Of a stretch of 64,000 nucleotides of DNA, positions 43,551 through 63,905 are shown in pieces (position 1 is the stretch's first letter; each line of letters starts with the position of its first letter). The stretch lies in assembly GCF_023702065.1 (NCBI RefSeq), contig NZ_QFDM01000003.1, positions 62,001-126,000 on the forward strand. The letters run 5' to 3'. This DNA comes from Methanoculleus oceani (GTDB lineage Archaea; Halobacteriota; Methanomicrobia; Methanomicrobiales; Methanoculleaceae). The notes beneath the pieces were generated by a model, which worked only from the letters and a program-made list of their open reading frames with translations, did no database searches and was not told the DNA's origin. The translations under genes and the position numbers were made by a program.

Positions 43551-43556
43551 GATAGT

Positions 43557-43583
43557 ATTGTAAGTGCTTACCATATTTACAAT
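43557..43583. promoter_or_regulatory. inverted repeat upstream of the second antitoxin
   Basis: ATTGTAA (43557-43563) and TTACAAT (43577-43583) flank the TATA-like element, placing a likely autoregulatory operator over the promoter. Confidence 0.5.
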
Positions 43584-44620: not shown

Positions 44621-44884
44621 ATGCAGCAGAGAACAGACGATAGAGAGACCGAACAGAAAACCAGCGGCGGCAGCCCGGACCAGAAGTGTGACCGCACCGT
44701 CGGCCAGGCCGCCACTGGTACATCTTCACCGGAAGAGATAAGCGTGCCCCCGGTGCCGCTTTTCCTCGTCCCGCGAGCGGTGGCGGACGAGATCCGGCGG
44801 CACGGCCGGGCGGTGCGGGAGATCAACGTCCGCCGGACCCGGAACCACCAGTACGCGATCAGCGTCGAGCGGGGGCGGGGATGA
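44621..44884 (+). CDS. module gene A, copy 1, unknown function
   Basis: An 87-residue protein with a polar, low-complexity N-terminus (TEQKTSGGSPDQKCDR) and a basic C-terminal half (VPLFLVPRAVADEIRRHGRAV, REINVRRTRNHQYAIS). GAGGT eight bases before ATG 44621 fixes the start. It is near-identical to the protein at 49842-50105. Its stop overlaps the start of gene B by ATGA, so they are translationally coupled. No family is recognised; the basic half could bind nucleic acid. Confidence 0.7.
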   Translation: MQQRTDDRETEQKTSGGSPDQKCDRTVGQAATGTSSPEEISVPPVPLFLVPRAVADEIRRHGRAVREINVRRTRNHQYAISVERGRG

Positions 44885-45348
44885 CCCGGGAGTCGAAGCC
44901 TTCGGCTTCTTCCGCTCCGCTCCTGATGGAGCATCGCAACCCGAAAACCTTCGGTTTTCTCCCGCTCCGGTCCGATAGAACCATCGCGCAGGGGACCCTC
45001 GCCTGTACGGCGGCCGGCGGGCTCATCGTCGATGTGGAGGGAGAACGCTACCGGATCGAGGCCGGGGATGTAAAGGGACTGATCTTTTCCGGCCGGCCGG
45101 CGCCGGTCATGCGGGAGCGGTGCGAGGGTGTGACCGGGTTGACGATCGAGGGGCATGCGGCGGTGCACCCCGCCGGGAGAGCGGTGGTGATCCGGACCCG
45201 GGCGGGGGCCTGGATCGTCCCGCTCGCCTCGTTCCAGCGGGTGGCGTGTGGGGAGGAGGTGAGGGCGCCGGTTTTGGGGCTTGTTTCGGAGAGTGACCGA
45301 TTATTGAGTGAGAGTTTGAGCACCTATCTGAGGGATTCAACTCCCTAA
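44881..45348 (+). CDS. module gene B, copy 1, expanded by a palindromic repeat
   Basis: A 155-residue protein. Residues 1-4 and about 38-140 match the 104-residue partner at 50102-50416 (YRIEAGD, IEGHAAV, GRAVVIRTRAGAWIVPL, SFQRVA). Residues about 5-37 are encoded by an inserted palindromic repeat whose length keeps the frame. The C-terminus also differs. It may still be functional. No family is recognised; the core is a small beta-rich domain. Confidence 0.65.
   Translation: MTRESKPSASSAPLLMEHRNPKTFGFLPLRSDRTIAQGTLACTAAGGLIVDVEGERYRIEAGDVKGLIFSGRPAPVMRERCEGVTGLTIEGHAAVHPAGRAVVIRTRAGAWIVPLASFQRVACGEEVRAPVLGLVSESDRLLSESLSTYLRDSTP
44893..44991 (+). repeat. palindromic repeat inserted in gene B
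   Basis: It contains hairpins GAAGCC-TTC-GGCTTC (44895-44909) and GAAAACC-TTC-GGTTTTC (44943-44959), with shared flanks ATCGCA and GCTCCGGTCC. It matches the plan of the repeats at 15760-15894 and near 53340-53410 and is absent from gene B copy 2. Confidence 0.75.
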
Positions 45349-45410
45349 GACTGCACAGGAATCGAACCCGCGGCCTCTACTATGCCAAGGTGCTACCCCC
45401 TTTACAGTCT
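45348..45410 (-). pseudogene. degenerate tRNA or tRNA-like element
   Basis: On the minus strand acceptor arms AGACTGT/GCAGTCT pair over seven bases, and a T arm with GGGTTCGATTCC is present. The total is only 63 bases, and the anticodon arm cannot be folded normally. It starts at the stop of gene B and marks the change from GC-rich to AT-rich DNA, as expected for an old integration site. Confidence 0.5.
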
Positions 45411-45619
45411 CTAATTAATAAATTCGCGGAATATATTGCCGTGATAGTGTCACGGGAAGACGTTTCGTACTGCTTGCTCTACTGAATTGCTTCAAATATT
45501 TCTGGACACAGCGTGTAAATGGATCACTCCTCCCATTTTTAAAATCCCGTGACTCTCGCATAGGAAAAAATTCGTAAATCTTATCCCTTCTCATAGATAT
45601 CTGATTTTTAGGTTGTACA

Positions 45620-47536: not shown

Positions 47537-47669
47537 ATCTCAACTTTCGTAGGGGTATTTTGAGAAGAGATATGCTTCTCGATATATCTCAGCCAGCAGA
47601 GTGACACCTGCACGAATACCCTTTATACGTCATCGGGTAATGTATTATCACGAGCAGGGGTGCAATCTG

Positions 47670-47903
47670 ATGAGAAGCCTGAATTACCGTATCCTCCTCC
47701 GGAAGGAGCCGGAAGGCGGGTATACCGTTATTGTGCCGACCCTTCCCGGCTGTGTCACCTTCGGAGAGACCGTCGATGAAGCTATTGCGATGGCACGGGA
47801 GGCCATTGAACTCTACATTGAGGGCATGCTAGCGAGAGGTGAGGAAATCCCCACCGAGGAAGGACTGCTGGAATACACCCTCACCGTCGAAGCCCATGCC
47901 TAA
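47670..47903 (+). CDS. HicB-family antitoxin
   Basis: A 77-residue HicB: YRILLRKEPEGGYTVIVPTLPGCVTFGETVDEAIAMAREAIELYIEGM. AGGGGTG eight bases before ATG 47670 fixes the start. It overlaps the hicA gene by eight bases. Confidence 0.88.
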   Translation: MRSLNYRILLRKEPEGGYTVIVPTLPGCVTFGETVDEAIAMAREAIELYIEGMLARGEEIPTEEGLLEYTLTVEAHA

Positions 47904-48120
47904 ACTTCCGGTACTCACGGCCCAGAAGATCATCAAGATTCTAGGAAAGAAGGGATTTGTGCTGGACCGGGTGAAGGGAAGTCATCACCTCTTCTATCAC
48001 CCGGAGACGAAGCGCCAGGTCGTCGTCCCGGTGCACGGGCGGGACCTCCCGACCGGCACGCTCCTGGAGATCCTCAAGCAGGCCGGGATTGAGCGGGAGG
48101 AGATTGAGGATCTTTTGTAA
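47896..48120 (+). CDS. HicA-family toxin
   Basis: A 74-residue HicA: LTAQKIIKILGKKGFVLDRVKGSHHLFYHPETKR, then VPVHGRDLPTGTLLEILKQAG. The catalytic histidine is in KGSHH. HicA cleaves mRNA in translation; the HicB encoded just before blocks it. A truncated relative of its C-terminal part is at 52204-52341. Confidence 0.9.
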   Translation: MPKLPVLTAQKIIKILGKKGFVLDRVKGSHHLFYHPETKRQVVVPVHGRDLPTGTLLEILKQAGIEREEIEDLL

Positions 48121-48182
48121 AACGTTAACCGGGTATACGGGACAGGTTCAGCGCAGCCTGCGGCCAGCCGAGAAGGCCCCTC

Positions 48183-48413
48183 TCAAAGATACCGGGCAAA
48201 ATCCTCAGGATCGATCTTCGCCAGCTTCAGGACACTGCGAAGTGTACCGAGCTTCAACTCGTTGTGCAACGGAACGACCGTACCTACCTTTCCATCGGGC
48301 GTCGCCTTCGAAAGGCGAACATGGCTCCCGGATTGCCCGCTTACGACGAATCCGTACTGTTTCGAGAGTATCTTGATCACCGTCTCGCCCGAGGTGGGTT
48401 TAAGCCCGGGCAC
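48183..48413 (-). CDS. HicA-family toxin
   Basis: A 76-residue HicA: SGETVIKILSKQYGFVVSGQSGSHVRLSK, then TVVPLHNELKLGTLRSVLKLAKI. The catalytic histidine is in GSHVRL. It overlaps the end of its hicB by 14 bases and belongs to a different HicA subgroup from 47896-48120. Confidence 0.88.
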   Translation of the reverse strand: MPGLKPTSGETVIKILSKQYGFVVSGQSGSHVRLSKATPDGKVGTVVPLHNELKLGTLRSVLKLAKIDPEDFARYL

Positions 48414-48612
48414 CCTCGGCCACCTCGAACGTTGTGATGATCGGCTTTCTCCCGTCTTCCAGCGGGAATTCCTCTAAGTACAGCTCCGTAGCCTCTTTGA
48501 GGTTGGCCACCGCCTCTTCAACCGTCCTGCCCTGGCTGACGGTGCCGACCTCCGGGCACTCCGCGACATACATATCCTCTTCCCTGTAAAGCACGGCCGT
48601 GAACGTCCTCAT
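48400..48612 (-). CDS. HicB-family antitoxin
   Basis: A 70-residue HicB: FTAVLYREEDMYVAECPEVGTVSQGRTVEEAVANLKEATELYLEEF. GGTGAG a few bases before ATG 48612 supports this start; longer readings upstream are unconserved. Confidence 0.85.
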   Translation of the reverse strand: MRTFTAVLYREEDMYVAECPEVGTVSQGRTVEEAVANLKEATELYLEEFPLEDGRKPIITTFEVAEGARA

Positions 48613-48743
48613 AATCTCACCGATAGAATAGCATCTCTCTTTGTCGTGATAATACTTGACCAACATATCCTGGCCAGCCATCTCGTCTGTTATGAGTGTG
48701 CACACGATGCCGCGGGAAAGTCTCTGAAAATTTCTCGAAACGA

Positions 48744-49442
48744 CTATCCGGCGGGTAATTCCTTTAGGGCCTTGCGTGCAGCATCCATCTCGGCTCGCTT
48801 TTTGGTGCAACCGATACCCTGCGCAAGTTCTTTCCCGTTAAGACAGACAGCCGCTTTCCACACCTTCTTGTGGTCGGGGCCCTCGGAGAAAGGCTGGTAT
48901 TTTAATTCCCCCAATGGGTGCCGTTCAACATACTCTTTAAGTCTGCCTGCATAGTTGCCCTCAGGATCGAAGGTCTTGATCTCTTCAGCAAATATGCCAA
49001 GGATAACCTCCCGCGCCTTTTCTATCCCTTCAGCATAATAAATTGCTCCAATAAACGCTTCAAATGCATTGGCAGTCATCTTCATCGTCGGCTTCCTGCA
49101 TCCCCGGAAGCGTATCGCGTCGTCGATCTTGAGATTATTTCTCACGACGACATCTGCCAGATTTGCATTCGCGGTTATTTTCATCCGTTTGTTCATCTCT
49201 TTGGGATCATACAGGTTAAAGTCATGCAGATATCCGGCAATTACAAAATCGAGGAGATAATTGCCGAAGAACTCTAATTTCTCATTATCTTCGCAGGGGA
49301 TGTTCTCCTGTTTCCTCTCGTTGGAGAATGAGCTGTGTGTGAGTGCTGTATCGTAAAGAGCGAGGGAATCTTCGTGAGGTTCTATCCTGAAATACGGACC
49401 ACGGAGAATATCGAGTATTTTCGCCTTCTGGGACTCTTCCAT
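48744..49442 (-). CDS. RNase III homologue with altered catalytic residues
   Basis: A 232-residue protein with an RNase III domain (about 5-150) and a dsRNA-binding domain (about 160-230). The signature reads NEKLEFFGNYLLDFV: E54 and E57 are kept but the usual aspartate is N61. The second metal site reads TANAFEAFIGAIYY: the aspartate is N125 while E128 is kept. Cleavage is therefore doubtful; it may bind dsRNA only, or act as half of a complex. RNase III is uncommon in archaea, which with the TA neighbours suggests horizontal gain. Confidence 0.88.
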   Translation of the reverse strand: MEESQKAKILDILRGPYFRIEPHEDSLALYDTALTHSSFSNERKQENIPCEDNEKLEFFGNYLLDFVIAGYLHDFNLYDPKEMNKRMKITANANLADVVVRNNLKIDDAIRFRGCRKPTMKMTANAFEAFIGAIYYAEGIEKAREVILGIFAEEIKTFDPEGNYAGRLKEYVERHPLGELKYQPFSEGPDHKKVWKAAVCLNGKELAQGIGCTKKRAEMDAARKALKELPAG

Positions 49443-49841
49443 AGATGTCGATGCACCTATGGCGATTTAACCATTGGTTTTCTGCTCTCCATGCTTCTGC
49501 TCCCGGTATCGTCCTTGCCGGTGAGCCCGCGAGCAGGAAGAACCGGTTTTCCGGAGAGAAAAGGCGTGAAGTGATCCGCGAAAAGAGACGTTATTATCGT
49601 ACCAGGGCTTGCAATGTGGTCGCCTGCGGGTGGCCGAACAATTCCGGATTAGTGATCCTCCCGGCTCCTGCCCCCGATTGGAAATCCCGGGCCGGTCCCC
49701 CGGTTTCACATCCTCGCAATAAAGAAACGCATATATGGAGCCTGTCGTTCCGTTCAGGGCCATTGGCTCACCCTTTTAACCCCCGGTTCCCGAGGATGAT
49801 GCATGCGCCGGGAACCATCCCGGTGCGTGAGGTACAGAACC
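49443..49841. other. region upstream of the second module copy
   Basis: About 400 bases. From 49497 it is the duplicate of 44276 onward, containing the same TATA box (49729-49738) and long leader. No other gene is recognised. Confidence 0.5.
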
Positions 49842-50110
49842 ATGCAGCAGAGAACAGTCGATAGAGAGACCGAACAGAAAACCAGCGGCGGCAGCCCGGA
49901 CCAGAAGTGTGACCGCACCGTCGGCCAGGCCGCCACTGGTACATCTTCACCGGAAGAGATAAACGTCTCCCCGGTGCCGCTCTTCCTCGTCCCGCGAGCG
50001 GTGGCGGACGAGATCCGGCGGCACGGCCGGGCGGTGCGGGAGATCAACGTCCGCCGGACCCGGAACCACCAGTACGCGATCAGCGTCGAGCGGGGGCGGC
50101 CATGATCCCG
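49497..50110 (+). repeat. duplicated module, copy 2 (near-identical part)
   Basis: Second copy of 44276-44889, ending just inside gene B. The left boundary is sharp: bases before 49497 lie in the RNase III gene leader and do not match copy 1. Confidence 0.88.
49842..50105 (+). CDS. module gene A, copy 2, unknown function
   Basis: An 87-residue protein differing from the copy at 44621-44884 at only a few positions (for example EEINVSP for EEISVPP). The same GAGGT ribosome site and ATGA overlap with gene B are present. Confidence 0.7.
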   Translation: MQQRTVDRETEQKTSGGSPDQKCDRTVGQAATGTSSPEEINVSPVPLFLVPRAVADEIRRHGRAVREINVRRTRNHQYAISVERGRP

Positions 50111-50416
50111 GAGCCGGGCACGCTCAGCCACAGTGCCGGCGGAGCGCTCCGGATCTCCGTCGAGGCGGAGCGCTACCTGATCGAGGCCGGAGATCTCAGG
50201 AACCTCCTCTTCTACGGCCGGGTGATCCCGATCACGCAGGCGGCCCCCGGCGGGACCGCCATCAAGGGGCACGCGGCGATGAACGCTTCCGGCAAGGCGG
50301 TGATGCTCCATACCCGCGTCGGCTCTTACATCATCCCGCTCGTCAGTTTCCAGCGGGTCGCCCGCGGGGAGGCCGTCTCCGCCCCGCTCTTCCCCCTCGT
50401 GCCGGGGGCTGCCTGA
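50102..50416 (+). CDS. module gene B, copy 2, unknown function
   Basis: A 104-residue protein, the uninterrupted form of gene B: ISVEAERYLIEAGDLRNLLFYGRV, IKGHAAMNASGKAVMLHTRVGSYIIPLVSFQRVARGEAV. The copy at 44881-45348 carries an insert near its start. The alternating hydrophobic pattern suggests a small beta-barrel. It is coupled to gene A by ATGA. Confidence 0.65.
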   Translation: MIPEPGTLSHSAGGALRISVEAERYLIEAGDLRNLLFYGRVIPITQAAPGGTAIKGHAAMNASGKAVMLHTRVGSYIIPLVSFQRVARGEAVSAPLFPLVPGAA

Positions 50417-50651
50417 TGCGCGGTGACGTTCGCCGGGCGATCGAGGTCCTCGCCGGCGGCGGATACATGATGTGATATGGTAGCGCGACGATACCCCTCT
50501 CGCGAGAGGATGCCGCGATCGACCGGCATTAGATTCTTCTTCACTCCCGAGAGAATACTCAGAAAGAAATCAGAGGCATACAGAGGGGAGGCATGGCAGT
50601 CGGAAAGATCGGCGCTCGGACTCGTTTGGGCGCATCTATAAGAGCAGCAGC

Positions 50652-52100
50652 ATGAACCCCGTCCGCATCTTCATCAGCAGCGTGCAGAAGGAGTTCGCCG
50701 ACGAGCGGGCGGCTCTCCGCGACTACCTGCGGGGCGACGCACTGATGCGGCGTTTCTTTGAGGTCTTCCTCTTTGAGGAACTCCCCGCCGCCGACCGCCG
50801 CACCGACGTCGCATACCTCGACGAAGTCCGGCGCTGCGACATCTATGTCGGGCTGTTCGGGAACGACTACGGTTCCGAGAACACCGGAGGGCTCTCCCCG
50901 ACCGAGCGGGAGTTCGACCTCGCCACCGCCGAGGGGAAGTACCGGCTCATTTACGTCAGGGGCACGGACGACGCCGCACGCCACCCGAAGATGCGTGCGC
51001 TTGTTCACAGGGCAGAGGGCGGGCTGATCCGGAAGCGGTTCAACACCCCCTCGGAACTGGTCGCCAGGCTGTATGCGGCGCTCGTTGAGTACCTGGAGGA
51101 GAAGCAGCTCATCCGTTCCGGCCCCTTCGACGCGGCCCCGTGCACGAAGGCGACGCTCGACGACCTAGATCCCGAACGGATGGCGTGGTTCATCCGCACG
51201 GCCAGAGCGACCCGCCGGTTCCCCCTCGCCGGGGATGCCTCTCCCGCTGAACTGCTGGAGCACCTGAATCTGCTTGACGACGGCCGGGTGACGAACGCCG
51301 CGGTTCTCCTCTTCGGGAAAAAACCGCAACGATATCTCCTCTCTTCCGAGATCAAGTGTGCCCACTTCCACGGCACCGAGGTAGCCAAACCGATCCCCTC
51401 CTACCAGGTCTACAAGGGCACCGTCTTCGATCTCGTGGACGCGGCGGTGGACTTCGTCCTCAGCAAGATCGCCCTCTCGGTAGGCACCCGCGAGGCCGGG
51501 CCGCAGGCGCCGGTGCGCTACGAGATCCCGAAGGAGGTGGTGGCGGAGGCGATCGTGAACGCCGTCGCCCACCGCGACTACACCAGCAACGGCAGCGTCC
51601 AGGTGATGCTCTTTGCCAACCGCCTGGAGGTCTGGAACCCGGGCACCCTCCCGCCGTCCCTGACGCTCGAGAAACTCCGGCAGGCCCACGGCTCGGTGCC
51701 GGCGAACCCCCTCCTCGCCGAGCCGATGTACCTCGCCGGCTACATCGAGCGGATGGGCACGGGGACGCGGGACATGATCCGCCGCTGCTCCGAAGCAGGT
51801 CTGCCGGAGCCGGAGTTTGCCGTCAGTGATGGGTTCCGGACGATCGTTCGCCGGGTCCAGGGAGGGGAAGAACCTTCGGGGAAAACTTCGGGGAAAACTT
51901 CGGGGAAAACTTCGGGGTTAATCCTGGACATGATCCGGCGACAGCCAGAGATCACCATACCGGAGATGGCCGAAGCACTGGGCAAGAGCACCCGGGCTAT
52001 AGAGATGCAACTCGCAAAACTCAAACAGTCCGGAAAGGTGCAACGCATCGGCCCGGCAAAAGGTGGCCGCTGGGAGATTACTGAAGGCGGAGATGAGTAG
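50652..52100 (+). CDS. DUF4062 protein with RecG-like ATP-binding domain
   Basis: A 482-residue protein. The N-terminal DUF4062 (about 3-90) begins VRIFISSVQKEFADERAAL and has CDIYVGLFGNDYG, a TIR/SEFIR-like fold seen in signalling and defence proteins. The middle has a divergent HATPase-like domain of the RecG-related transcription-regulator type (EVVAEAIVNAVAHRDYTSNGS; NPLLAEPMYLAGYIERMGTGTRDMI). A repeat-encoded SGKT linker follows, then a winged helix (ITIPEMAEALGKSTRAIEMQLAKL). It may sense DNA or protein damage and act as a regulator or defence effector. Confidence 0.85.
   Translation: MNPVRIFISSVQKEFADERAALRDYLRGDALMRRFFEVFLFEELPAADRRTDVAYLDEVRRCDIYVGLFGNDYGSENTGGLSPTEREFDLATAEGKYRLIYVRGTDDAARHPKMRALVHRAEGGLIRKRFNTPSELVARLYAALVEYLEEKQLIRSGPFDAAPCTKATLDDLDPERMAWFIRTARATRRFPLAGDASPAELLEHLNLLDDGRVTNAAVLLFGKKPQRYLLSSEIKCAHFHGTEVAKPIPSYQVYKGTVFDLVDAAVDFVLSKIALSVGTREAGPQAPVRYEIPKEVVAEAIVNAVAHRDYTSNGSVQVMLFANRLEVWNPGTLPPSLTLEKLRQAHGSVPANPLLAEPMYLAGYIERMGTGTRDMIRRCSEAGLPEPEFAVSDGFRTIVRRVQGGEEPSGKTSGKTSGKTSGLILDMIRRQPEITIPEMAEALGKSTRAIEMQLAKLKQSGKVQRIGPAKGGRWEITEGGDE
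51874..51917 (+). repeat. 12-base tandem repeat in the DUF4062 gene
   Basis: CTTCGGGGAAAA is repeated 3.7 times. It encodes (SGKT)n in the linker before the winged helix. The unit is a multiple of three, so copy-number changes would alter linker length without a frameshift. Confidence 0.85.
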
Positions 52101-52203
52101 CGTCGGTGAGCGTGGGATTTTCGCGCAGATGCTGGTCGTCGTCTCCTTCCAGGGGATGCGTGAAGGCAGGCTGAAAGAGGTGGCAAAAGATCAGGTGCAA
52201 GTT

Positions 52204-52341
52204 CACCACCTCTTTTATCACCCGGAGACAAAGCGCCGGGCCGTCGTCCCGGTGCACGGGCGGGATCTTCCGGCCGGCACGCTCCTGGAGATCCTCAAGC
52301 AGGCCGGGATTGAGCGGGAAGAGATTGGGGATCTTTTGTAA
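52204..52341 (+). pseudogene. C-terminal fragment of a hicA gene
   Basis: It reads HHLFYHPETKRRAVVPVHGR then DLPAGTLLEILKQAG, almost identical to the last 45 residues of the HicA at 47896-48120, including the DNA. The N-terminal half, with KGSH, is missing and unrelated DNA precedes it. Confidence 0.8.
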
Positions 52342-53339: not shown

Positions 53340-53410
53340 GTGCATGAAGGTGCGAGGTGCGACGGTTCGCAGGACCGGAGCATGAGCACCGAAGGTGCGA
53401 GGGGTGTTAT
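53340..53410 (-). repeat. palindromic repeat of the same family beside the Cas1 relic
   Basis: Read on the minus strand it has TCGCACC-TTC-GGTGC, then GCTCCGGTCC and GAACCGTCGC, the same scaffold as the repeat at 44893-44991. It sits where the Cas1 N-terminal domain would be expected. Confidence 0.6.
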
Positions 53411-53449
53411 GCCCGGCTGGCGCGGGAGGGGAATGGGGGTGGGGGTGAG

Positions 53450-53788
53450 GTGGACTACATGAACTGTATGCTGAACTACGGCTACTCGCTGCTGGAGGTC
53501 GAATGTTTGCGGGTTATCAACAGCGTGGGGCTCGGTGCGCATGTAGGATACCTCCACGAGATGCAGGCGGGCAAAAACAGTCTGGCCTACGATATCCAGG
53601 AGTTGTTCCGGTTCCTTGTGAATCTGGCGGTTATCAACCTTGCTGAAAAAAGTGCGATGAACGCGAAGGACTTCGTGAGGACAGAGATCTACGCGCTGCG
53701 GCTGCGGTCAACTGGTGCGCGGAAGATGACGGAGGAGATTAACGCTGGGTTCAATAAGTGTGGATCAACAGCTGATCTTGAAGATTGA
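53450..53788 (+). pseudogene. cas1: Cas1 C-terminal domain relic
   Basis: It reads LNYGYSLLEVECLRVINSVG, VGYLHEMQAGKNSLAYDIQE and FVRTEIYALRLRSTGARKM, the metal-binding integrase domain of Cas1. The catalytic Glu (VEC), His (LHEM) and Asp (AYDIQ) positions are still present. The N-terminal beta domain is absent and a palindromic repeat lies just upstream. No cas2 or CRISPR array is in the window. A 100-residue product could still be made, but it is unlikely to integrate DNA. Confidence 0.82.
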
Positions 53789-54002: not shown

Positions 54003-55190
54003 ATGATTGAGACAATTGGCAAATCAAAAGATAACAAAATCATGAATCTTTTAGCCGAAGTGACTGGCGGTATGAGTTACAAGGCACACAAATATGCTCT
54101 TGACCACTTGGAACGGCCTTCGGTGGATTATGGCCCTAGTGAGATTGTTTGGAAACGAAGAGCTGAGACTACCCCGCATAGAACCTACATAGATTTATCT
54201 GAGAGGTGTAAGACGCTCGCCGGTCAGGATGATCAGATTTTGAGCTATTTCTTGGACGGTTCGCGCAGGATTTTTAAAGTTGATGATATGGCTTACACAC
54301 ACTCGGGTGGTCGAGGTGTGATTTATCCTGTAGTGGCCGGGCAGATAGGAATCGGATGTTGCCGTCGTATTGACAAAAGGGTGGTTCCGGCTAGGTTCAA
54401 ACGCGAGTTTGTATTGTCCATGCCTGATGTGGCAGATGCTGACGGAAAATCAGGATTTTGGCCAGCGACAGTAAAAAAACTTAATGAGTGTGCTGAATTA
54501 AAAAGACTCGGAATTGATTTCTCGACTATTCTTCCGTATAAGACATCTAAAAACGATGATAAAAAATACGAGGATCGAGCCACGGCTTCTATCCAAGATA
54601 GAATGATTGAACGTGAGAAAGAATTAGTAGCAGAACTCGTCCGCGAGGGCATGTTGAATCAAGATAACTACTTAGTTAAGGATGGGTCTTTGGAATATCG
54701 TCCTACTAAGGAAGATAAATCTGATAAGAGGAAATATCAGACCTTCAAGAACAACTACAACTGGGTTATTGGTGCATCAAAAAATTTTAATCCGGAAGTC
54801 TGTATGGATGTTTATGGCAAGCCAAACCCCAAATTTATTGCAGATTTGCCACTTTACCATCGTACACCTGTGGCGGAATATGAGAATGATATGCTAGGTG
54901 ATATTAAATTTGCAGTATGGTATATTCGATTGCGGGATAAAAACCAGACGCGAACTCCGTTCGATGGTATTCTTAAAGTGGAAAAAATTCTCGTGACAGA
55001 GGAGGAGAATGAGCACGGGATAGAAAGCGAACTCGTTGATACGGTGAGCGCTTATCTAATAAACGAAAGGAATCCTGTTTGTTATGGCTCAGATCTCCGT
55101 TGGGCGAATCACATATACCCTATCCATCTGACAGAGTCTTTTGTGAAATCTCGGTATTTGAGTACGGAAAGTTTTCTACATTTATTCTAA
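54003..55190 (+). CDS. NurA-like nuclease
   Basis: A 395-residue protein with NurA features: LDGSRRIF (D85-G-S), a later VKDGSL (D227) after a charged helix, and NWVIGASKNFN followed by a beta-rich end (KFAVWYIRLR, GILKVEKIL). NurA nucleases trim DNA ends with the HerA translocase in archaeal repair, and NurA-HerA pairs also serve in antiviral defence. Twelve bases separate it from the HerA-like gene. It is first in a four-gene operon and AT-rich. It is too divergent to be the housekeeping copy. Confidence 0.75.
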   Translation: MIETIGKSKDNKIMNLLAEVTGGMSYKAHKYALDHLERPSVDYGPSEIVWKRRAETTPHRTYIDLSERCKTLAGQDDQILSYFLDGSRRIFKVDDMAYTHSGGRGVIYPVVAGQIGIGCCRRIDKRVVPARFKREFVLSMPDVADADGKSGFWPATVKKLNECAELKRLGIDFSTILPYKTSKNDDKKYEDRATASIQDRMIEREKELVAELVREGMLNQDNYLVKDGSLEYRPTKEDKSDKRKYQTFKNNYNWVIGASKNFNPEVCMDVYGKPNPKFIADLPLYHRTPVAEYENDMLGDIKFAVWYIRLRDKNQTRTPFDGILKVEKILVTEEENEHGIESELVDTVSAYLINERNPVCYGSDLRWANHIYPIHLTESFVKSRYLSTESFLHLF

Positions 55191-55202
55191 AGGAGAGACG
55201 AT

Positions 55203-56885
55203 ATGAGTAAACTAATTGGACGGATTTTGGCAACTGAAAAAAACCCTACTACAATCGATGAATTTAATTTTTGGACGAATTCGGACTTGAAACTCAGTGC
55301 GTTTGATATAGTCAAGGTTGAGCATATCGACGGGTCTTACACTTTTGGGATGATCGAGAACATCTCCCACATCACGGACGCCCAGAGTTTTCTGACCAAC
55401 TTCATTTCCAGTGATTTCGGTGATGTAAATATTAATGAACCAACCTTGCGAGTTGGCATGAACTATGCTAAAGCCAAAGTTTCCTTCAACAGCGGGAATC
55501 TGTACACCCCGGTACATAACAACGCTAAGGTGTATCTTGCCAGCGCAGAAGAGATCACGATGGCTTTGGGCCTTGACAGGATTCAAAATCCGCTGGTTTG
55601 TGGGTCTTTAAGAATGTATGAAGGGACTCCAGAGGAGGTAACAGTCCCCGTACGTTTGAACTCGAAATTTATCCTAGGCCCAGAAGGTGCGCACCTGAAC
55701 ATCTCTGGCATTTCCGGGCTCGCAGCGAAGACATCGTATGCTATGTTTCTCATGAAAGCCATCCAGGATCGATACCAGAGCGACGATATGGACGACAGCG
55801 TGGCCTTTGTTATCTTTAACGTTAAGGGAAAGGACCTGATGGCGATTGATAAGCCGAATGACTTTTCATCAGATAACCCTGATGAAAAAGAGCGAACTCT
55901 TGCGGAGTACGAAGCACTGGGTTTGTCCACCGACCCGTTTAAAAATGTGAAATATTACATTCCCTTCACAGATCCAAAATCTGCCAAACAGAGCACATAT
56001 TTGACCAAAGGGGAAATTAAGAACAATATCGACGCCGGTCAGCTGAAGAAGTTCAAGTACATCTACTCGGACGATAAGGAGAACATCGAAATGATGTTTG
56101 CGGACATTGACGACCCGACCCAAACTATGGAGTCAATAATTAGCAAAATCATTGATAAAGAGGACAACGATTTCGGGGGTCTTTCAACCTGGAAAGACTT
56201 CATGGATAAAGTCACGGAAAAAACCCAAAAAGGCTCTCCCGGGGATAAGGGAGACATTTCCGTATTGAGTTGGCGAAAATTTAAACGGGTAATTCGCAAG
56301 GCCCTTCAGGACGAGATGTTTGCTAACAGGGTCAATAATCATGGAGCGGAATGCCGTTTAGCTGATGAATTGAAGCAAATCAGGAAGAACGAGGTGTATG
56401 TCGTCGACATTGCCAAGTTACCCGAAGACAAACAAGCATTTGTCTTTGGTGACGCCGTACGCACGATCTATAATTTAAAGCTCGGAGAGTATGACGCCGA
56501 GTCAATCGATCCTCCGTCCAGAATCATCATTTTCATCGACGAACTGAACAAATACGCTTCAAAAGATGTCCCGAAGACGTCACCAATTCTGCGTGAAATA
56601 CTGGACGTGACCGAACGTGGACGGTCATTAGGCGTTGTTCTCTTTGCCGCCGAACAATTCCGCTCTGCTATCCATGCCCGTGTAACTGGCAACTGCGCCA
56701 CACATGCCTATGGAAGAACAAACTCCATCGAAACCTCGGCTAAGGATTATAGCAGCCTTCCGAGTACTTACAAAAACATGCTGACACGGTTGGAACAGGG
56801 GGATTATCTAGTTCAAAACCCGATCTTCCGTTCCATCTTAAAAATAAATTTCCCGAAACCCATCTACAAGCAGTTTAAACAATGA
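55203..56885 (+). CDS. HerA-like ATPase
   Basis: A 560-residue FtsK/HerA-superfamily ATPase. The N-terminal HAS-barrel-like part is residues 1-130, Walker A GISGLAAKTS is at 169-178 and Walker B IIIFIDEL at 441-448, with the arginine-finger region ERGRSLGVVLFAAEQFRSAI. A long insert (about 220-380) lies between them. It would form a hexamer and pump DNA to the NurA-like partner. AGGAGAG before ATG 55203 is a good ribosome site. Confidence 0.88.
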   Translation: MSKLIGRILATEKNPTTIDEFNFWTNSDLKLSAFDIVKVEHIDGSYTFGMIENISHITDAQSFLTNFISSDFGDVNINEPTLRVGMNYAKAKVSFNSGNLYTPVHNNAKVYLASAEEITMALGLDRIQNPLVCGSLRMYEGTPEEVTVPVRLNSKFILGPEGAHLNISGISGLAAKTSYAMFLMKAIQDRYQSDDMDDSVAFVIFNVKGKDLMAIDKPNDFSSDNPDEKERTLAEYEALGLSTDPFKNVKYYIPFTDPKSAKQSTYLTKGEIKNNIDAGQLKKFKYIYSDDKENIEMMFADIDDPTQTMESIISKIIDKEDNDFGGLSTWKDFMDKVTEKTQKGSPGDKGDISVLSWRKFKRVIRKALQDEMFANRVNNHGAECRLADELKQIRKNEVYVVDIAKLPEDKQAFVFGDAVRTIYNLKLGEYDAESIDPPSRIIIFIDELNKYASKDVPKTSPILREILDVTERGRSLGVVLFAAEQFRSAIHARVTGNCATHAYGRTNSIETSAKDYSSLPSTYKNMLTRLEQGDYLVQNPIFRSILKINFPKPIYKQFKQ

Positions 56886-56896
56886 TGTGATGTATT

Positions 56897-58447
56897 ATGA
56901 AGGATGTTATCTTTGGGGCACATATTCTAGAAATTCTCACAACGGGAATGTATCAAGACTCAAAAGTAATCTATCGTGAGTACATCCAAAATTCCTCTGA
57001 TCAGATTGATAAAGCTATCAGAGACGGGATCCTAAAACAAGGTGAAGGCTCTATCAAAATATGGCTGGATCGTGAGAAGCGCACCATTGCCATCGAAGAT
57101 AACGCCACAGGTATTTCCGCGGAGGAGTTTCAAAGCACTCTATTAAATATTGCTGACTCGGACAAGAAAATCGGCGAAAATAAAGGTTTCCGGGGCATTG
57201 GAAGACTGTGTGGTTTGGCTTATTGCAAACAGCTTGTTATTACGTCATCATCCAAGGGGGAAAATATAGTATCAATTTTGGTGTGCGATGCACAGAAAAT
57301 GCGAAGGTTCATCGACGAGCATGCGCGTGGCAAGAAGCACACTGCAAACGAAGTGCTTCAGTCTATCTGCCGATTTGAGCAGAAGGAAGAAAAAAATATT
57401 GACTCACATTTCTTTAAAGTAGATCTTATCGATATTAACAGTGAGAATACTGATCTTCTCGATTTTCAGCAAGTTAAGGATTATCTTTCATTTGTTGCTC
57501 CTGCACCCTACCAGAGCAGCTTTAATTATCGTAAAAAAATCTATAAGCATGCTAACGACCTGGGCACCATAATAGACGAGTATAATATCACTCTCAACGG
57601 TGAGCCAATTTTTAAAAAATATACAACTGTGCTGAAAGACGTAACAGACACCAAATACGACGAAATCTTCGACGTGCATTTTAAGGATTTCTTTGATGCA
57701 GATGATAGGTTGTTCGCGTGGATGTGGGTCGGCCTTTCGCAGTTTAAAAAAGCCATTCCGCCAAAAAACAACCCGATGCGTGGCCTGCGGTTGCGTAAGG
57801 AGAATATACAAATTGGGGGAGAAGATTCACTCCAAAAACTCTTCAAAGAAAGCCGCGGAAACAGCTATTTTGTTGGTGAAGTTTTTGCCGTAGACAAGGG
57901 GTTAATCCCTAATTCGCAGCGTGATTATTTCAATGAAAACAGAGCCCGGATAGACTTTGAACGCGAGCTTAAAAAATATTTTAACGAAGAACTACAAAAA
58001 GTATATTACGCCGGATCTGAGATTAATAGTGCCTATAGGAAAATTGACTCATTTGAGAAAAAAGAGACTGATTTCAAAGCAAAAGACGCTAATAGCACCT
58101 TTATCGATAGTGCTCACCGCAAACACGAGCTAAAATCTGTTCAAGACTCAGAGAAAGAAGCTGAGGCCGCCCAAATAAAAATCGAAAAAGCGAAGGGCAA
58201 AGCCGACAGCCTAACACAAAGAGTTATTTCTCAAATAGAGGCTGAGCGGGCTAAGTCAGTTGCCAAATCCGTATCACCTAAATCAAAGGCTCTCGAAAGT
58301 GCCAAACTTTCTCGCCAAAGAGACAAACTTTCAAAGTACAGCAAAAATGAACGTAATCTAATTTCAAAAATATTCCGTATCATTTCAGCCGCAGTTGATG
58401 CTGAAACTGCTGACAAAATCACCAAGAAGATAGAGGAAGAACTCTAA
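56897..58447 (+). CDS. GHKL (Hsp90-like) ATPase with coiled-coil tail
   Basis: A 516-residue protein. GHKL motifs are REYIQNSSDQID (27-38), IEDNATGIS (67-74) and GFRGIG (97-102), giving the Bergerat ATP site. The middle part resembles Hsp90/MutL-type transducer domains; residues about 400-516 are charged, lysine/glutamate-rich helices that may form a coiled coil. It starts 11 bases after the HerA-like gene and shares one base with the radical SAM gene. ATP-driven dimer opening and closing is the likely activity. Confidence 0.85.
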   Translation: MKDVIFGAHILEILTTGMYQDSKVIYREYIQNSSDQIDKAIRDGILKQGEGSIKIWLDREKRTIAIEDNATGISAEEFQSTLLNIADSDKKIGENKGFRGIGRLCGLAYCKQLVITSSSKGENIVSILVCDAQKMRRFIDEHARGKKHTANEVLQSICRFEQKEEKNIDSHFFKVDLIDINSENTDLLDFQQVKDYLSFVAPAPYQSSFNYRKKIYKHANDLGTIIDEYNITLNGEPIFKKYTTVLKDVTDTKYDEIFDVHFKDFFDADDRLFAWMWVGLSQFKKAIPPKNNPMRGLRLRKENIQIGGEDSLQKLFKESRGNSYFVGEVFAVDKGLIPNSQRDYFNENRARIDFERELKKYFNEELQKVYYAGSEINSAYRKIDSFEKKETDFKAKDANSTFIDSAHRKHELKSVQDSEKEAEAAQIKIEKAKGKADSLTQRVISQIEAERAKSVAKSVSPKSKALESAKLSRQRDKLSKYSKNERNLISKIFRIISAAVDAETADKITKKIEEEL

Positions 58448-60261
58448 TGAGTCGAAAAATTCTCTTGATTGAGCCAAATTATAGGAATAAATACCCCCCA
58501 ATGGGCCTTATGAAGCTGGCGACTTATTACCGCAACCGAGGTGATGATGTACGCTTCTTCAAAGGCGATCTGAGATATTTCGCAGCTCATTTGCTATGTG
58601 AAGAATTTCTTTCTGAAGTGAATGAACCCAAACTGGGAAAGCATGTGCCTAAACTCATTGAGCATATAAAGACAGGAAAGTATGCTCCGCTCGATACAAT
58701 TCCGGACTTCAGGAACAGCGCACAAGAGACGCTTCTAAAAGAATATCGTCTTCGTTATCGGGACGGTGATTTCCCTCAGTTCGACATTATTCACATCACT
58801 ACTCTTTTTACCTTTTATTGGAGTATAACAATCGATACTATTAACTTTGCAAAAAAGTTCTGTTCAAAAACTGGCAGAATATTTGTTGGTGGAATAGCTT
58901 CAACCATACTTCATGAGCGAATTCTTCAAGAAACTGGAATTGACCCCATCCAAGGGCTATTAGACAAGCCCGGGATGCTGGACGCTGATAGTGTTGACAT
59001 CATCGACGAGATGCCTTTAGATTACTCGATCTTGGAGGAAATCGACTATCAATATCCGGCAAAAAACGCCTATTTTGCTTATATGACGCGAGGCTGCCCG
59101 AGAAAATGCCCCTTTTGTGCCGTTCCTCGTTTGGAGCCAGTGTATATTGACTACATAAGTTTGGTAAAGCAAATCAAACAAGCTGCAGAGCGATTTGGTC
59201 CGCAAAAGGATCTGCTTCTAATGGACAACAATATCTTAGCATCCAAACATTTTGATAAAATTATAGATGAAATTAAAAAATGTGGGTTTAAGCGCGGCGC
59301 CAAGTGCAATCCCGTAAGCGATTATGACATTGCGATGAAAAACATACGCGTTGGATACAATGTGAGGGCATATACAAGAAAAATCATCAGACTATACGAT
59401 CAAATCTCCGAAAAACTTCCAGAATCTGAACAAGCGGATTTTTATATAACACGTGAAGAACAGAATCTTCTTTATGCCGAAGTGGCAAGTCTTGAGGCGA
59501 TCATTAAGTTCGATAACATAGCGCGGCCACTCTATGAGAAGTATATCCAGCGGTTTAAGCGCCCCTCAATGCGCATTATTGATTTCAACCAGGGCGTGGA
59601 TGCTCGCCTTGTAACTGAAAAGAAAATGAAGAAATTGGCTGAGATCAACATTCGACCGCTGCGTATCGCTTTTGACTATTATTCAATGAAAGACAAATAT
59701 GAGTCTGCAATACGGATTGCAGCCAAGAATGGTATAACCGACTTATCCAACTATCTGCTTTATAATTTCGAAGACACGCCTGATGAGTTGTACTATCGGA
59801 TGAAACTTAACGTGGATCTATGTGACGATCTTGGTGTGAATATTTTCTCTTTCCCCATGAAATATCACCCTATTGACGACCCAGAATATTATGATAATCG
59901 AGAGTACATTGGCAAACATTGGAATCGCAAATTTATTCGATCAGTTCAGGCTGTTCTTAACGCTACTAAGGGAAAGATAGGTCGCGGAAAGTCGTTCTTC
60001 GAAGAGGCTTTCGGAAAAAATATAGACGAATTTTACAAGATTTTATGGATGCCGGAAGCGTTTATCATTCACCGTTTTAAATACAAAGAAAATCTGACTG
60101 CTGATTGGTGGAATCTGTATAAACAACTTGATGAAATGCAGCTGATTCAATTACATGAGATAGTGGCTAAAAATCAATTTGAGGAAAAAATCATAACGGG
60201 AGACAATGCCATTGATAGCGTGTTAAAATATTATTATATCCAACGCGATAGATCGTCATAG
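58447..60261 (+). CDS. radical SAM protein with B12-binding-like N-terminus
   Basis: A 604-residue radical SAM protein. Residues 1-200 resemble the Rossmann-like cobalamin-binding domain found before many radical SAM cores (KILLIEPNYRNKYPPMGLMKLA), but no clear DxHxxG cobalamin ligand is seen. C217/C221/C224 (RGCPRKCPFC) bind the 4Fe-4S cluster. A large helical insert (about 290-370) splits the barrel. Its ATG overlaps the stop of the GHKL gene, so it belongs to the same operon. The substrate is unknown. Confidence 0.85.
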   Translation: MSRKILLIEPNYRNKYPPMGLMKLATYYRNRGDDVRFFKGDLRYFAAHLLCEEFLSEVNEPKLGKHVPKLIEHIKTGKYAPLDTIPDFRNSAQETLLKEYRLRYRDGDFPQFDIIHITTLFTFYWSITIDTINFAKKFCSKTGRIFVGGIASTILHERILQETGIDPIQGLLDKPGMLDADSVDIIDEMPLDYSILEEIDYQYPAKNAYFAYMTRGCPRKCPFCAVPRLEPVYIDYISLVKQIKQAAERFGPQKDLLLMDNNILASKHFDKIIDEIKKCGFKRGAKCNPVSDYDIAMKNIRVGYNVRAYTRKIIRLYDQISEKLPESEQADFYITREEQNLLYAEVASLEAIIKFDNIARPLYEKYIQRFKRPSMRIIDFNQGVDARLVTEKKMKKLAEINIRPLRIAFDYYSMKDKYESAIRIAAKNGITDLSNYLLYNFEDTPDELYYRMKLNVDLCDDLGVNIFSFPMKYHPIDDPEYYDNREYIGKHWNRKFIRSVQAVLNATKGKIGRGKSFFEEAFGKNIDEFYKILWMPEAFIIHRFKYKENLTADWWNLYKQLDEMQLIQLHEIVAKNQFEEKIITGDNAIDSVLKYYYIQRDRSS

Positions 60262-60422: not shown

Positions 60423-62399
60423 TTAGCGATGAATCTTGAAGGGAACAGTCACAGAGTATTGATTAGGTCTTAAAAATCTCTCTTCAAGTTCGCTAGCCTC
60501 AATACATCTGACATATGGTTTCGTTTTCACTTGGAAGACGAAGTAATAGTAATAATTTGGCTGCAGATCCCGGCTTTTCTGAAGCTCATTCGAGGATAGG
60601 TAAAATCTGGCGAATCTCTTATGTGGTCGGACTGCCTTAACCTCAATATATCGTTTTGAACCGTCCTCATTGAAAGATGCAATATCGTAACCGAGACGAG
60701 GATCATTTGACACAGACTTAGCGGCATCAGCGAGGTCTTCCCGCCCCGCGTGCCGAAGCCTCTCTTTTTCGCACCTCAGCGCTTCATCCTCTGCAAGCTT
60801 GCCGAAATACTCATTCAACCTCTGTTTCTCCCCGTAATCAACACCAGATGATTGTCCATTTTCCAACTCCTCGTCGCTATCGTTGGAGAACATCGAAGGA
60901 GGCAGAACTTCAACTGAATGATCGATAATAAGCGGTTCAACTGTGGCGGCTGGGGGAATTTCCTGCTGGCTGTCACTGACCAGGTGTGAAATCATCCAGC
61001 AGAATGAATGAGCATCAAGCAGTGATACGTCCTCTAAGCCCTCCCCTTCCAGGGCCTTAAGTACCTGCTTCAGGACTTGGTTGTACGAGCGGTAGTTCTC
61101 CCAAGAACACCTTCTATTCGTTTTAAGAGGTACATCGAGTAAAGTAAGGGCTTTATCGAGCTGCTGAGGTGCAATGGGAGTGTATTCTTCCCGGTCTTTC
61201 AGGAAAAACAGGTACGCAAGAAGGTTGTATCGCCTTCCCATAAGGTTCGCAAAGGCATCAAAAGCGCTTTCCGGAGCGATGATATCCCTATAAAAATCGA
61301 ATAGTGCCGACTCAAATGCTTCGCAGCGCTTGCTATCCTCCAGTGCTTGGTAAAGGGAGTGTTGTGCACGTGCCGTTTCCCCCCAGCGGTTTTCCCACCT
61401 GACGAGGTTGTTTCGTAACTTAGTAGCCTTGATGTCGATCTCAATCGCGTAAATTACGCATTTGAGTAGGTGTCCCGTACCTATCTGTTCTTTCACCCAA
61501 TTTCTAAAGTTTAGCCTACTCCGCCCTTCTTCATAGATGTCTTGCTTATAACTTTCCCATTCCGATGGCAGCCCCTCGTTAAAAGAGACAAACTCCTTTC
61601 CGGACTTTTGTTTCACTGCTTCCTGAAACTGAATAAACCGCTGGTGGAAGATCCACAGAGGTAGATCAGTCTCCTGAGAGAGAGATGAATTATCCGCCCG
61701 GCGAGTTTTCCCCTCCAGTTGACGCTCTTGAGCAGCCATATCAAAACTCACGATGTACTCATCCTGTGCAGCAGTCCGTTCAAATTGCATGCATGGCGCA
61801 TCAGTTACCTTATCTTCTTCGTGGCGAAATAGGTCATAAATTGAGGGGAATGCTGCCCTCAGTTCGGAGCTAAAATCAGTCTTCCAGATCAATCGCGACC
61901 GGGAGGAGTCATGTTTTGTCATCTCAATATCAGCAAAGTACGCTATACCATCAAAAAATAACTTGACTGACCGTTTTTCGCCTGCGTTGAGGTCTTCTAT
62001 CCCAAAAAAGGAACGCATTTCGAAGGGAATCACTGTACCATGATGGAGGAAAACAGATTTATCCATTCGTTTAAGCGCATTATTGTCTGAAGTTACTGTC
62101 CATGAGTAAGAATTTGTGGGGTATCGGGTATCATCCTCTTTTTCCACAATTTCGAACCCGAGCAATCGTAATCTTTTATTAGTCTCTTCTCCGCCGGAAA
62201 ACTTTGACACATTGAAAAGTTCCCCATTGGCAAATTCATTTGCCAGACTGATGACATACTTCGGGGGATAACGCTTTCCGAGGTAGATTAGGTCATATTT
62301 TGTAGACTTGTTGTGGGGAGGGCATCCCTGCTCTTTTATTTCAGTTATTGCTCTAAGGATATGCTCTCGTTGAATATTTGAGGGAATCTGGGCTCTCAT
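60423..62399 (-). CDS. predicted restriction-like nuclease with DUF3883 end
   Basis: A 658-residue protein. The N-terminus (IQREHILRAITEIKEQGCP, YDLIYLGKRYPPKYVISLANEFANG) resembles the ScoMcrA-type head of modification-dependent enzymes. The C-terminal DUF3883/NOV domain has GYD (D572) and IEVK (E586/K588), a PD-(D/E)xK pattern, then YYYYFVFQV. A helical middle (about 245-470) is of unknown fold. It may cut modified or foreign DNA. It follows the GHKL-peptidase gene by 111 bases in the same direction. Confidence 0.78.
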   Translation of the reverse strand: MRAQIPSNIQREHILRAITEIKEQGCPPHNKSTKYDLIYLGKRYPPKYVISLANEFANGELFNVSKFSGGEETNKRLRLLGFEIVEKEDDTRYPTNSYSWTVTSDNNALKRMDKSVFLHHGTVIPFEMRSFFGIEDLNAGEKRSVKLFFDGIAYFADIEMTKHDSSRSRLIWKTDFSSELRAAFPSIYDLFRHEEDKVTDAPCMQFERTAAQDEYIVSFDMAAQERQLEGKTRRADNSSLSQETDLPLWIFHQRFIQFQEAVKQKSGKEFVSFNEGLPSEWESYKQDIYEEGRSRLNFRNWVKEQIGTGHLLKCVIYAIEIDIKATKLRNNLVRWENRWGETARAQHSLYQALEDSKRCEAFESALFDFYRDIIAPESAFDAFANLMGRRYNLLAYLFFLKDREEYTPIAPQQLDKALTLLDVPLKTNRRCSWENYRSYNQVLKQVLKALEGEGLEDVSLLDAHSFCWMISHLVSDSQQEIPPAATVEPLIIDHSVEVLPPSMFSNDSDEELENGQSSGVDYGEKQRLNEYFGKLAEDEALRCEKERLRHAGREDLADAAKSVSNDPRLGYDIASFNEDGSKRYIEVKAVRPHKRFARFYLSSNELQKSRDLQPNYYYYFVFQVKTKPYVRCIEASELEERFLRPNQYSVTVPFKIHR

Positions 62400-62510: not shown

Positions 62511-63905
62511 TCATTTTCTAATTGCTTTTTCCGCCACAAGTCCCAGATACCTGGTTAATTCATTCTCAAAACTACGGGATACATCAGATGCGTCACTTGT
62601 AGCGTGAGCAACTTCGTGAAGTAAGATACCTGCATAATTCTGGATGTCTTTCAGTTGGTCTCGTTTTATTATGATCCTATTTTCAGAAGCCTCCCACAAC
62701 CCCCCTACTTCCAGATATGAATCTGGATCGAGTCGCATTGTTTTTGAAATCAGGATTTCTTTCACACATTCAGGCCGGCCTCCAACGAAGTCCAATATTT
62801 GTCCAGTTTGTTCAAAAACCTGTTTTTCCTTTGCGGTAAACTGCCTCTCAGACACAAAAGAGAACTTCAAACTATTATTCCAATCTCTGCTGAATTGCTC
62901 TACGTCCCTGATCGGATTGCCCGAGACGTCTACTGCGCCTTGTAATTTACCTTTAATCTTCTGGGGAACAATTATGACGTCATATTTATCATTTCTGACC
63001 CTATCAACAAGATTCGGTGCGGACATGGCCTCGTCGGAGGTGAAGAATACAACCTTAGAACGATCATTGAGTAATCGGCATGCATGAACAGACACCTCTG
63101 ACCAGCCTAACTCGTCATGGTGCTCCCCGGCATCATAGTTGGCCAGATCATTTACTAATTCGTGCGCAACTTCCTGACTTTCGCATGCAGTAAGGATCTT
63201 TTGAACCCTGTCAGCGTAAGCCGTTCTACCGACATTCGTACGCTCACGATTCAATGCCTTTTGTATAGCTTTGTTGAGGGCCGTAATATTGTATGAAAAG
63301 AGGAAGTTTTCTTCTTCCGCAACCTGAACCCCGTTAACATATATTTTTGCGGGATCAGATTTCTTTTTAATAACCTGACCTAATGATGTGGTTTCTAACA
63401 CTTTTTCACCAGAAAAACGCAGGAACAGATCCTTCGCTCTTGAAATATCACTGTCTGAACAGTTTTTAAGGATAAACTCTGTTCCTTGGAAGTTATTATC
63501 AGAAGGGGGAGAAATTTGTGCGTGCAATGTGATAATATCATCAAAACCGTGTTTTTTTGTTCTTTCTAAGGTAATATCTTCATGCTTTGATTTTATCGAG
63601 ACCTGGACGCCCTTTCGATTGAATGTTGCAAGAGCATCTTTCAACCCGATACCAAATTTTCCAATGACATGAGGGTTTTTAAGTTTCTCATCGTTTTCTT
63701 TTTGTGTCAAGTGTTGATGATTAAGTCCTCTTCCATAATCGCGGATGTGCCAGCAATTCGCTTTATCTTTAAATATCTCAATTTTCTTGGTCTTGGTGAG
63801 TAGTTCTTCATCAATAGCATTGGCAATAATCTCTCTGACTGCGTGGTAGACTTCCCAATCTTCTAATATCTTCTCGACATTGAGATCAAACTTGTTAAAG
63901 GTCAT
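62511..63905 (-). CDS. GHKL ATPase fused to an HEXXH peptidase-like domain
   Basis: A 464-residue protein. The N-terminal GHKL domain has REIIANAIDEEL (N-box), IRDYGRGL (D-box) and GKFGIGLKDALA (G-box). The C-terminus has LLHEVAHATSD with HEXXH at 430-434 and possible third zinc ligands E447 or E449 in FENELTRYLG, as in gluzincins. The middle part (150-380) is not recognised. ATP binding could control proteolysis. The left start ATG 63905 lies 95 bases from the window end; its promoter is not wholly visible. Confidence 0.8.
   Translation of the reverse strand: MTFNKFDLNVEKILEDWEVYHAVREIIANAIDEELLTKTKKIEIFKDKANCWHIRDYGRGLNHQHLTQKENDEKLKNPHVIGKFGIGLKDALATFNRKGVQVSIKSKHEDITLERTKKHGFDDIITLHAQISPPSDNNFQGTEFILKNCSDSDISRAKDLFLRFSGEKVLETTSLGQVIKKKSDPAKIYVNGVQVAEEENFLFSYNITALNKAIQKALNRERTNVGRTAYADRVQKILTACESQEVAHELVNDLANYDAGEHHDELGWSEVSVHACRLLNDRSKVVFFTSDEAMSAPNLVDRVRNDKYDVIIVPQKIKGKLQGAVDVSGNPIRDVEQFSRDWNNSLKFSFVSERQFTAKEKQVFEQTGQILDFVGGRPECVKEILISKTMRLDPDSYLEVGGLWEASENRIIIKRDQLKDIQNYAGILLHEVAHATSDASDVSRSFENELTRYLGLVAEKAIRK

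Follow-up and report, generated by a model that had tools for sequence, protein, structure and literature searches.

Organization of the cassette

A 64,000-nucleotide stretch of the Methanoculleus oceani genome (contig NZ_QFDM01000003.1, positions 62,001 to 126,000), here called the window, carries a cassette of four genes that encode a NurA-like nuclease, a HerA-like ATPase, a GHKL ATPase and a radical S-adenosylmethionine (SAM) enzyme. Calling of open reading frames (ORFs) places the four genes in one operon-like run on the + strand, at 54003-60261 (Table 1). They are separated by a 12-base gap and an 11-base gap, and the last two overlap by one base (TAATG). An earlier note on this DNA had given the same strand and the same junctions, and the ORF calls and the sequence agree with it exactly. 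Its description of the genes as AT-rich is equally accurate. The guanine-plus-cytosine (GC) content of the NurA, HerA, GHKL and radical SAM genes is 0.418, 0.449, 0.406 and 0.399, respectively, as compared with 0.627 for window positions 1-38000 (40-45% against a backbone of 63%). The AT-rich island around the cassette extends from about 41 kilobases (kb) to the end of a GHKL-zincin gene near 63.9 kb. Past the island, in a locus record that extends beyond the window (L011), ordinary metabolic genes return.

Table 1. Positions of the cassette genes and their neighbours in the window, and of related genes at other loci (L labels); aa, amino acids
Feature	Location	Strand	Characteristics
NurA-like nuclease	54003..55190	+	395 aa; motifs FLDGSRR (D85), YLVKDGSLEY (D227)
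Probable ribosome-binding site of HerA gene, AGGAGAG	55191..55197	+	read from sequence only
HerA-like hexameric DNA-translocase ATPase	55203..56885	+	560 aa; HAS-barrel N-terminus, P-loop GISGLAAKTS, Walker B IIIFIDE
GHKL (Hsp90/HtpG-like) ATPase	56897..58447	+	516 aa; C-terminal part helical, variable
Radical SAM enzyme	58447..60261	+	604 aa; B12-binding-like N-terminal Rossmann region; CxxxCxxC at C217/C221/C224
Cas1 C-terminal fragment	53357-53788		just upstream of cassette; PF01867 E 1e-25
NO VEIN (DUF3883-type) protein, related to PD-T4-1/TmtA	60423-62399	-	faces cassette
GHKL-zincin protein	62511-63905	-	faces cassette
Type I restriction enzyme	L027 flank		E 0
AbiEii	L028 flank		E 1e-118
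AbiLi / AbiLii	L047 flank		E 4e-92 / 5e-29
LmuB	L093 flank		E 1e-232
HEC-06	L019 flank		E 1e-79
Type IV restriction-like helicase	L018 flank		E 5e-52
HNH endonucleases	L036:12867-13706, L025:3328-4050, L082:9173-9970
DGQHR-radical SAM-GHKL operons	L168:8977-13200, L169:6941-11218, L170:6800-11041, L171:6838-10978
~360-aa radical SAM + DGQHR modules	L172:7071-9568, L173:7276-9749, L174:6255-8764, L175:7175-9712, L176:5464-7982, L177:5503-8024
NurA-HerA and radical SAM genes of Marinitoga camini virus 1	L167:5933-9759
HerA relatives with SbcD and SbcC-like genes	L183:4482-11020, L184:3909-11149, L185:3801-10963
Radical SAM relative with ParB-like protein	L095:8361-11611

Co-inheritance of the four genes

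The cassette is a conserved unit that is co-inherited and moves horizontally; its active sites are intact and its surroundings are defence-rich. When 84,980 species genomes were scanned with a NurA alignment, 161 relatives were obtained, and 80 loci were kept. All four genes are intact in at least 56 loci, in the order NurA-HerA-GHKL-radical SAM; the median junctions are +12, +11 and -1 bases. These 56 comprise at most 54 of the 80 loci, one relative from the order and two IMG/VR contigs. Where neither a contig end nor an insertion cuts the locus, the four genes nearly always stand in this order on one strand. Complete loci span Bacillota, Chlorobiota, Planctomycetota, Synergistota, Chloroflexota, Cloacimonadota and Methanomicrobiales, and most of the hosts are anaerobes.

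The histories of the genes agree as well. Between the four proteins, distance matrices are correlated at r 0.86-0.93, and r was at most 0.20 in 500 label permutations. These correlations show co-inheritance, although such values are also raised by shared descent by itself. Chance clustering is excluded by the 56 same-order loci together with the agreeing gene histories. Radical SAM proteins that score above 900 bits are present in only 3 of 99 genomes of the class, exactly those holding the cassette. Of 20 bacterial genomes with the NurA gene, 17 have a single radical SAM gene of the cassette type; in the other three the locus is degenerate or interrupted.

The earlier note had proposed that the four genes form one defence or DNA-processing system. 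This proposal agrees with their co-occurrence in the same order in the 56 loci, with their shared history and defence-rich flanks, and with the lack of a named system with this set in PADLOC or the open papers searched; the defence activity itself is presumed. A recurrent six-gene extension is seen in several gut Clostridia and Lachnospiraceae (L052, L054, L057 and L063), where an ORF of 254-260 aa and a second GHKL gene lie downstream of the radical SAM gene.

Properties of the four proteins

The cassette NurA has no match in Pfam (including PF09376), NCBIfam or PADLOC. An AlphaFold model built from 50 homologues, with a predicted local distance difference test score (pLDDT) of 88.5, was compared with known structures by Foldseek. 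The model resembles Deinococcus NurA (7f6d_G, E 2e-11, probability 1.00) and Sulfolobus NurA (2ygk, E 4e-8); no other match has an E value below 0.001. The predicted fold of the first ORF is that of NurA. Residues D85, E205, D227 and H370 are invariant in 50 sequences, and particular ones would presumably bind metal. A profile-profile match to the chromosomal NurA of the same order is not significant; the second DGS-like motif alone is aligned, and the alignment is too weak to map all the invariant acidic residues (D85, E205, D227). The only PF09376 match in the host genome is a separate NurA gene elsewhere on the chromosome (contig C2). A plasmid search with the cassette NurA gave no match.

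The second ORF is sub-threshold in Pfam; among PDB entries, its profile hits HerA of Deinococcus (7f6d_B, E 8e-50). The HAS barrel, the P-loop and the Walker B motif of HerA are all present, and the unusual P-loop GISGxAxKTS is common to the two proteins. K176, T177, D446 and E447 are invariant in 41 sequences. The match to 8xau, an antiviral HerA of the Sir2/DUF4297 type, is far poorer (E 2e-4). An assignment to Mads was rejected, as HerA matches mad8 at the P-loop level only (E 7e-11) and the full mad1-mad8 set is missing; the mad8 model of PADLOC is a generic P-loop match that also recognizes control proteins. On Streptomyces, Chloroflexota and cyanobacterial plasmids, HerA relatives adjoin SbcD and SbcC-like genes, often with an ImmA/IrrE gene.

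The third protein matches PF13589 above the Pfam cut-off (E 5.6e-10), and its profile resembles HtpG in the PDB (E 1e-10). The Bergerat ATP-binding motifs are present, with E28/N32 of the N-box, D68xxxG72 and G97-G102 invariant in 41 sequences. The resemblance to HtpG is confined to the ATP-binding domain, and the middle and C-terminal domains of Hsp90 were not found. An HtpG/Hsp90 chaperone was rejected as its identity, since the NCBIfam HtpG model gives 40 bits against a cut-off of 371 and covers the N-terminal part only.

The radical SAM enzyme matches PF04055 above the Pfam cut-off (E 1.4e-7). C217, C221 and C224 are invariant in 43 sequences. The closest folds to its AlphaFold model (pLDDT 90) are TsrM, AprD4 and MiaB. 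The modelled structure places the enzyme in the B12-binding (TsrM/AprD4/MiaB) class, and cobalamin binding is predicted. The earlier note had drawn a parallel to viperins, and this is not supported: the N-terminal region is of the B12-binding type, and no viperin family match was obtained in Pfam, NCBIfam or PADLOC, nor any PDB sequence match. The likeness to viperins is limited to a radical SAM enzyme tied to defence; the class is a different one, with no detectable relation. That the enzyme makes a viperin-like chain-terminating nucleotide or a signal, to which the other proteins respond, is very improbable. Viperins do establish that radical SAM enzymes can be antiviral, whereas the B12-type architecture, the missing PADLOC and PDB sequence matches and the DNA-handling nature of the cassette partners all speak against such a product.

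Patchy distribution and mobility

The cassette is rare among the relatives of its host. NurA was found in 4 of 295 genomes of the phylum, and one of the four is a broken remnant in the same genus as the window. Cassette-type HerA and cassette-type GHKL are present in 1 of 35 genomes of the genus. In a concatenated tree, the window and HGW-Methanomicrobiales-3 are nested among Bacillota and Chlorobiota, and a second methanogen lineage (G164) is placed elsewhere. The tree contains two separate cassette lineages within Methanomicrobiales; its single rows may be affected by binning errors in metagenome-assembled genomes. Loss through insertion sequences and decay is seen in L035, L042 and L067. 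Cassettes are also carried on two IMG/VR contigs (putative viral) and next to relaxase or recombinase genes.

Two congeners (G228 and G080; L175 and L174) share upstream accessory genes with window positions 43077-52341 at 75-93% identity. They have a radical SAM-DGQHR pair where the window has the four genes; the islands are of the same family, with contents exchanged. A record from human faeces deposited as an unverified bacteriophage (MT836743.1; L007) consists of 8.9 kb with the four-gene cassette and an AlbA-like gene. No phage gene is seen on these 8.9 kb, and the record is probably bacterial DNA.

Defence genes around the cassette

Proteins that flank the cassettes are rich in matches to defence models. 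At 1e-8, 113 flanking proteins matched 271 PADLOC models, and 113 control proteins, taken from distant parts of ten host contigs, matched 13, several of them generic. The contrast is qualitative, because the models are redundant, which inflates the counts, and the two sets are not length-matched. The loci usually adjoin known antiviral genes, and restriction enzymes and abortive-infection proteins are among the neighbours (Table 1). In the window, the cassette is faced by a NO VEIN gene and the GHKL-zincin gene, and the other neighbours include a HicA-like gene and a DUF4062-HATPase gene. A shorter NO VEIN gene also adjoins the cassette in L013. The Cas1 fragment is apparently a relic of a clustered regularly interspaced short palindromic repeats (CRISPR) locus. 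A CRISPR link of the cassette was rejected, as only the C-terminal piece of Cas1 is present and there is no repeat array in 49-64 kb.

Two separable modules

The cassette is built of two modules, NurA-HerA and GHKL-radical SAM, each of which occurs elsewhere with other partners. An HNH endonuclease occupies the place of GHKL in L036 and L025. In L082, an HNH-NurA-HerA set lies apart from the GHKL-radical SAM pair, which is on another contig of the same genome. The three HNH endonucleases have an N-terminal domain in common.

The GHKL-radical SAM pair forms a core that can be separated from the rest. In a set of 72,556 plasmids, the records with relatives of GHKL and those with relatives of the radical SAM enzyme are the same 12, all alphaproteobacterial. 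A DGQHR-radical SAM-GHKL operon was present in all four of the plasmids examined (radical SAM E ~1e-136, GHKL E ~1e-90). Its carriers are large plasmids, several of them conjugative. As in the window, homologous radical SAM and GHKL genes lie side by side; unlike in the window, DGQHR replaces NurA-HerA and the radical SAM protein has ~540 aa. The closest other radical SAM proteins of methanogens (~360 aa) have a DGQHR gene directly downstream in 6 of 7 loci, and the DGQHR call is above the curated cut-off (TIGR03187, E 3e-20 to 3e-27). DGQHR proteins are components of DNA-modification systems; they include DpdB, a ParB-like ATPase used in inserting dPreQ0 into DNA (PMC12839542), and DndB belongs to phosphorothioation (PMC10853773). 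The pairing of radical SAM relatives with DGQHR proteins of the DndB/DpdB kind is a likeness to the Dpd (7-deazaguanine DNA modification) and Dnd systems, and points to DNA modification rather than a nucleotide analogue. The window cassette itself differs in having no DGQHR, TGT, DndA/C/D/E or other modification gene.

These relatives also bear on the substrate of the enzyme. The B12/MiaB-like class includes enzymes that act on proteins and tRNA, and the radical SAM gene is tightly translation-coupled to GHKL. The enzyme might accordingly modify a protein of the complex (e.g. HerA, NurA or GHKL) or a tRNA, arming or silencing it. We hold this to be rather improbable. In particular, neither NurA nor HerA is likely to be its fixed substrate, because related radical SAM enzymes occur with DGQHR proteins and without NurA-HerA.

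A phage offers a further arrangement. Marinitoga camini virus 1 has NurA-HerA of the cassette family and a convergent 360-aa radical SAM gene, without GHKL. Together with the cassettes that lie on IMG/VR contigs or adjoin genes for a relaxase or recombinase, and with the DGQHR-radical SAM-GHKL relative on large, partly conjugative plasmids, this phage would suit a weapon or exclusion module by which phages, integrative and conjugative elements or plasmids act against competing elements and do not serve the host. Such a role is quite unlikely, as most copies are chromosomal and next to restriction and abortive-infection systems. It overlaps with a role in host defence, because defence systems often ride on mobile elements.

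Proposed function

We see about an even chance that the cassette is a mobile system, so far undescribed, that defends against viruses or other DNA entering the cell, with HerA-NurA as effector, GHKL as switch and the radical SAM enzyme providing a self/non-self chemistry. HerA-NurA complexes pump double-stranded DNA into NurA, where both strands are degraded, and an antiviral role has been proposed for them (PMC12977600); paired with nucleases other than NurA, or with Sir2, HerA acts against phages (PMC11291478). Because of these activities, HerA-NurA is the likely effector. The HerA ring would pump double-stranded DNA into NurA, and NurA would degrade the DNA of the invader, as in the Deinococcus and archaeal complexes. 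GHKL proteins are ATP-driven clamps, and the Hsp90-like GHKL would therefore be a likely gate, a clamp or switch by which the nuclease is licensed; an HNH nuclease can substitute for it. The earlier note had given GHKL the same putative role, and the radical SAM enzyme that of making a modified nucleotide, signal or protein. The B12-type radical SAM enzyme would most likely make a DNA mark that shields the host, or another self signal, or act on invader DNA. The choice of DNA as its target is the most speculative part and the weakest link of the model; DNA is favoured mainly because relatives of the enzyme accompany DGQHR/DpdB-like proteins.

Several observations weigh against a defence role of this kind. 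The PADLOC counts are inflated and come from sets of unequal length, as noted above, and housekeeping genes flank the cassette in some Selenomonadaceae and Synergistales loci. The HerA relatives beside SbcC/SbcD on plasmids, with a probable NurA, form a repair-like set. No known DNA-modifying radical SAM family matches the cassette enzyme, and no sequence-recognition domain was found.

Some of these points would agree with a DNA-repair cassette of anaerobes, with NurA-HerA resecting broken ends, GHKL in a MutL-like role and the radical SAM enzyme undoing a DNA lesion as spore photoproduct lyase does. The hosts are mostly anaerobes, a Pol IV gene flanks L016, and HerA-NurA of Deinococcus works in DNA end processing (PMC12977600). 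A repair function is nevertheless unlikely. The cassette is very patchy, with copies that are decayed or interrupted by insertion sequences, its surroundings are defence-rich, and some copies lie on putatively viral contigs or adjoin genes of mobile elements. In addition, the fold neighbours of the radical SAM enzyme are TsrM, AprD4 and MiaB, and spore photoproduct lyase is absent among the matches listed. The cassette shares the NurA-HerA pair with the archaeal mre11-rad50-herA-nurA repair operon and is without Mre11 and Rad50.

As in the cassette, NurA is followed by HerA in one operon for the HerA-NurA complex of Deinococcus radiodurans (PDB 7f6d), which shares the P-loop and the NurA fold; it is described as DNA end-resection machinery, with no GHKL or radical SAM gene as a part. 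HerA-Sir2 (Nezha) and HerA-DUF4297 likewise join a HerA ATPase to a nuclease or other effector in defence surroundings. In the window the effector is NurA, HerA is only remotely alike, GHKL and radical SAM are additional, and no Sir2 or DUF4297 partner was found. The 2023 version of PADLOC has no model for the NurA, GHKL or radical SAM protein of the set. No description of NurA-HerA-GHKL-radical SAM as a system was found in the open literature searched; a name may already exist in newer defence catalogues or preprints. The earlier note had likewise known of no system with this set, and none was found under a name in either source.

Combining HerA with a nuclease or other effector is an established theme of bacterial immunity; the cassette adds a radical SAM enzyme of the B12 type and an Hsp90-like ATPase. 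HerA-nuclease defence is already known, and the GHKL-radical SAM core may be of a kind of its own. Tentatively, and with clearly less than an even chance, we suggest that this core is a new immune core. An oxygen-sensitive B12-type enzyme would lay (or read or alter) an unknown DNA modification, and the core would plug into interchangeable NurA-HerA, HNH and DGQHR modules. It would so form, in both bacteria and archaea, a counterpart of restriction-modification that works by radical chemistry. If the cassette defends, it would add radical SAM chemistry to immunity, where viperins have so far been the only case. The DGQHR link of the relatives would then make a putative DNA modification directly testable. 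The fixed four-gene set ranges from Clostridia to methanogens, and its hosts include human gut species and pathogen-related ones. It is also a natural context in which to ask what NurA-HerA does, a question of long standing.

Additional observations on related modules

The radical SAM gene of Marinitoga camini virus 1 carries the annotation "hypothetical". Near the alphaproteobacterial plasmid operons (L168-L171) there are ParB-N/DEAD helicase genes and a pair of a PIN-like and a second GHKL gene. The ~360-aa radical SAM-DGQHR pair is apparently a second, unnamed module. In six methanogen genomes, its DndB/DpdB-like DGQHR proteins have an N-terminal zinc-ribbon-like segment, and helicase or SMC-type genes are near. 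On one IMG/VR contig (L095), a 540-aa radical SAM relative adjoins a 521-aa ParB-like (VVLDGNRR) protein, without NurA-HerA or GHKL.

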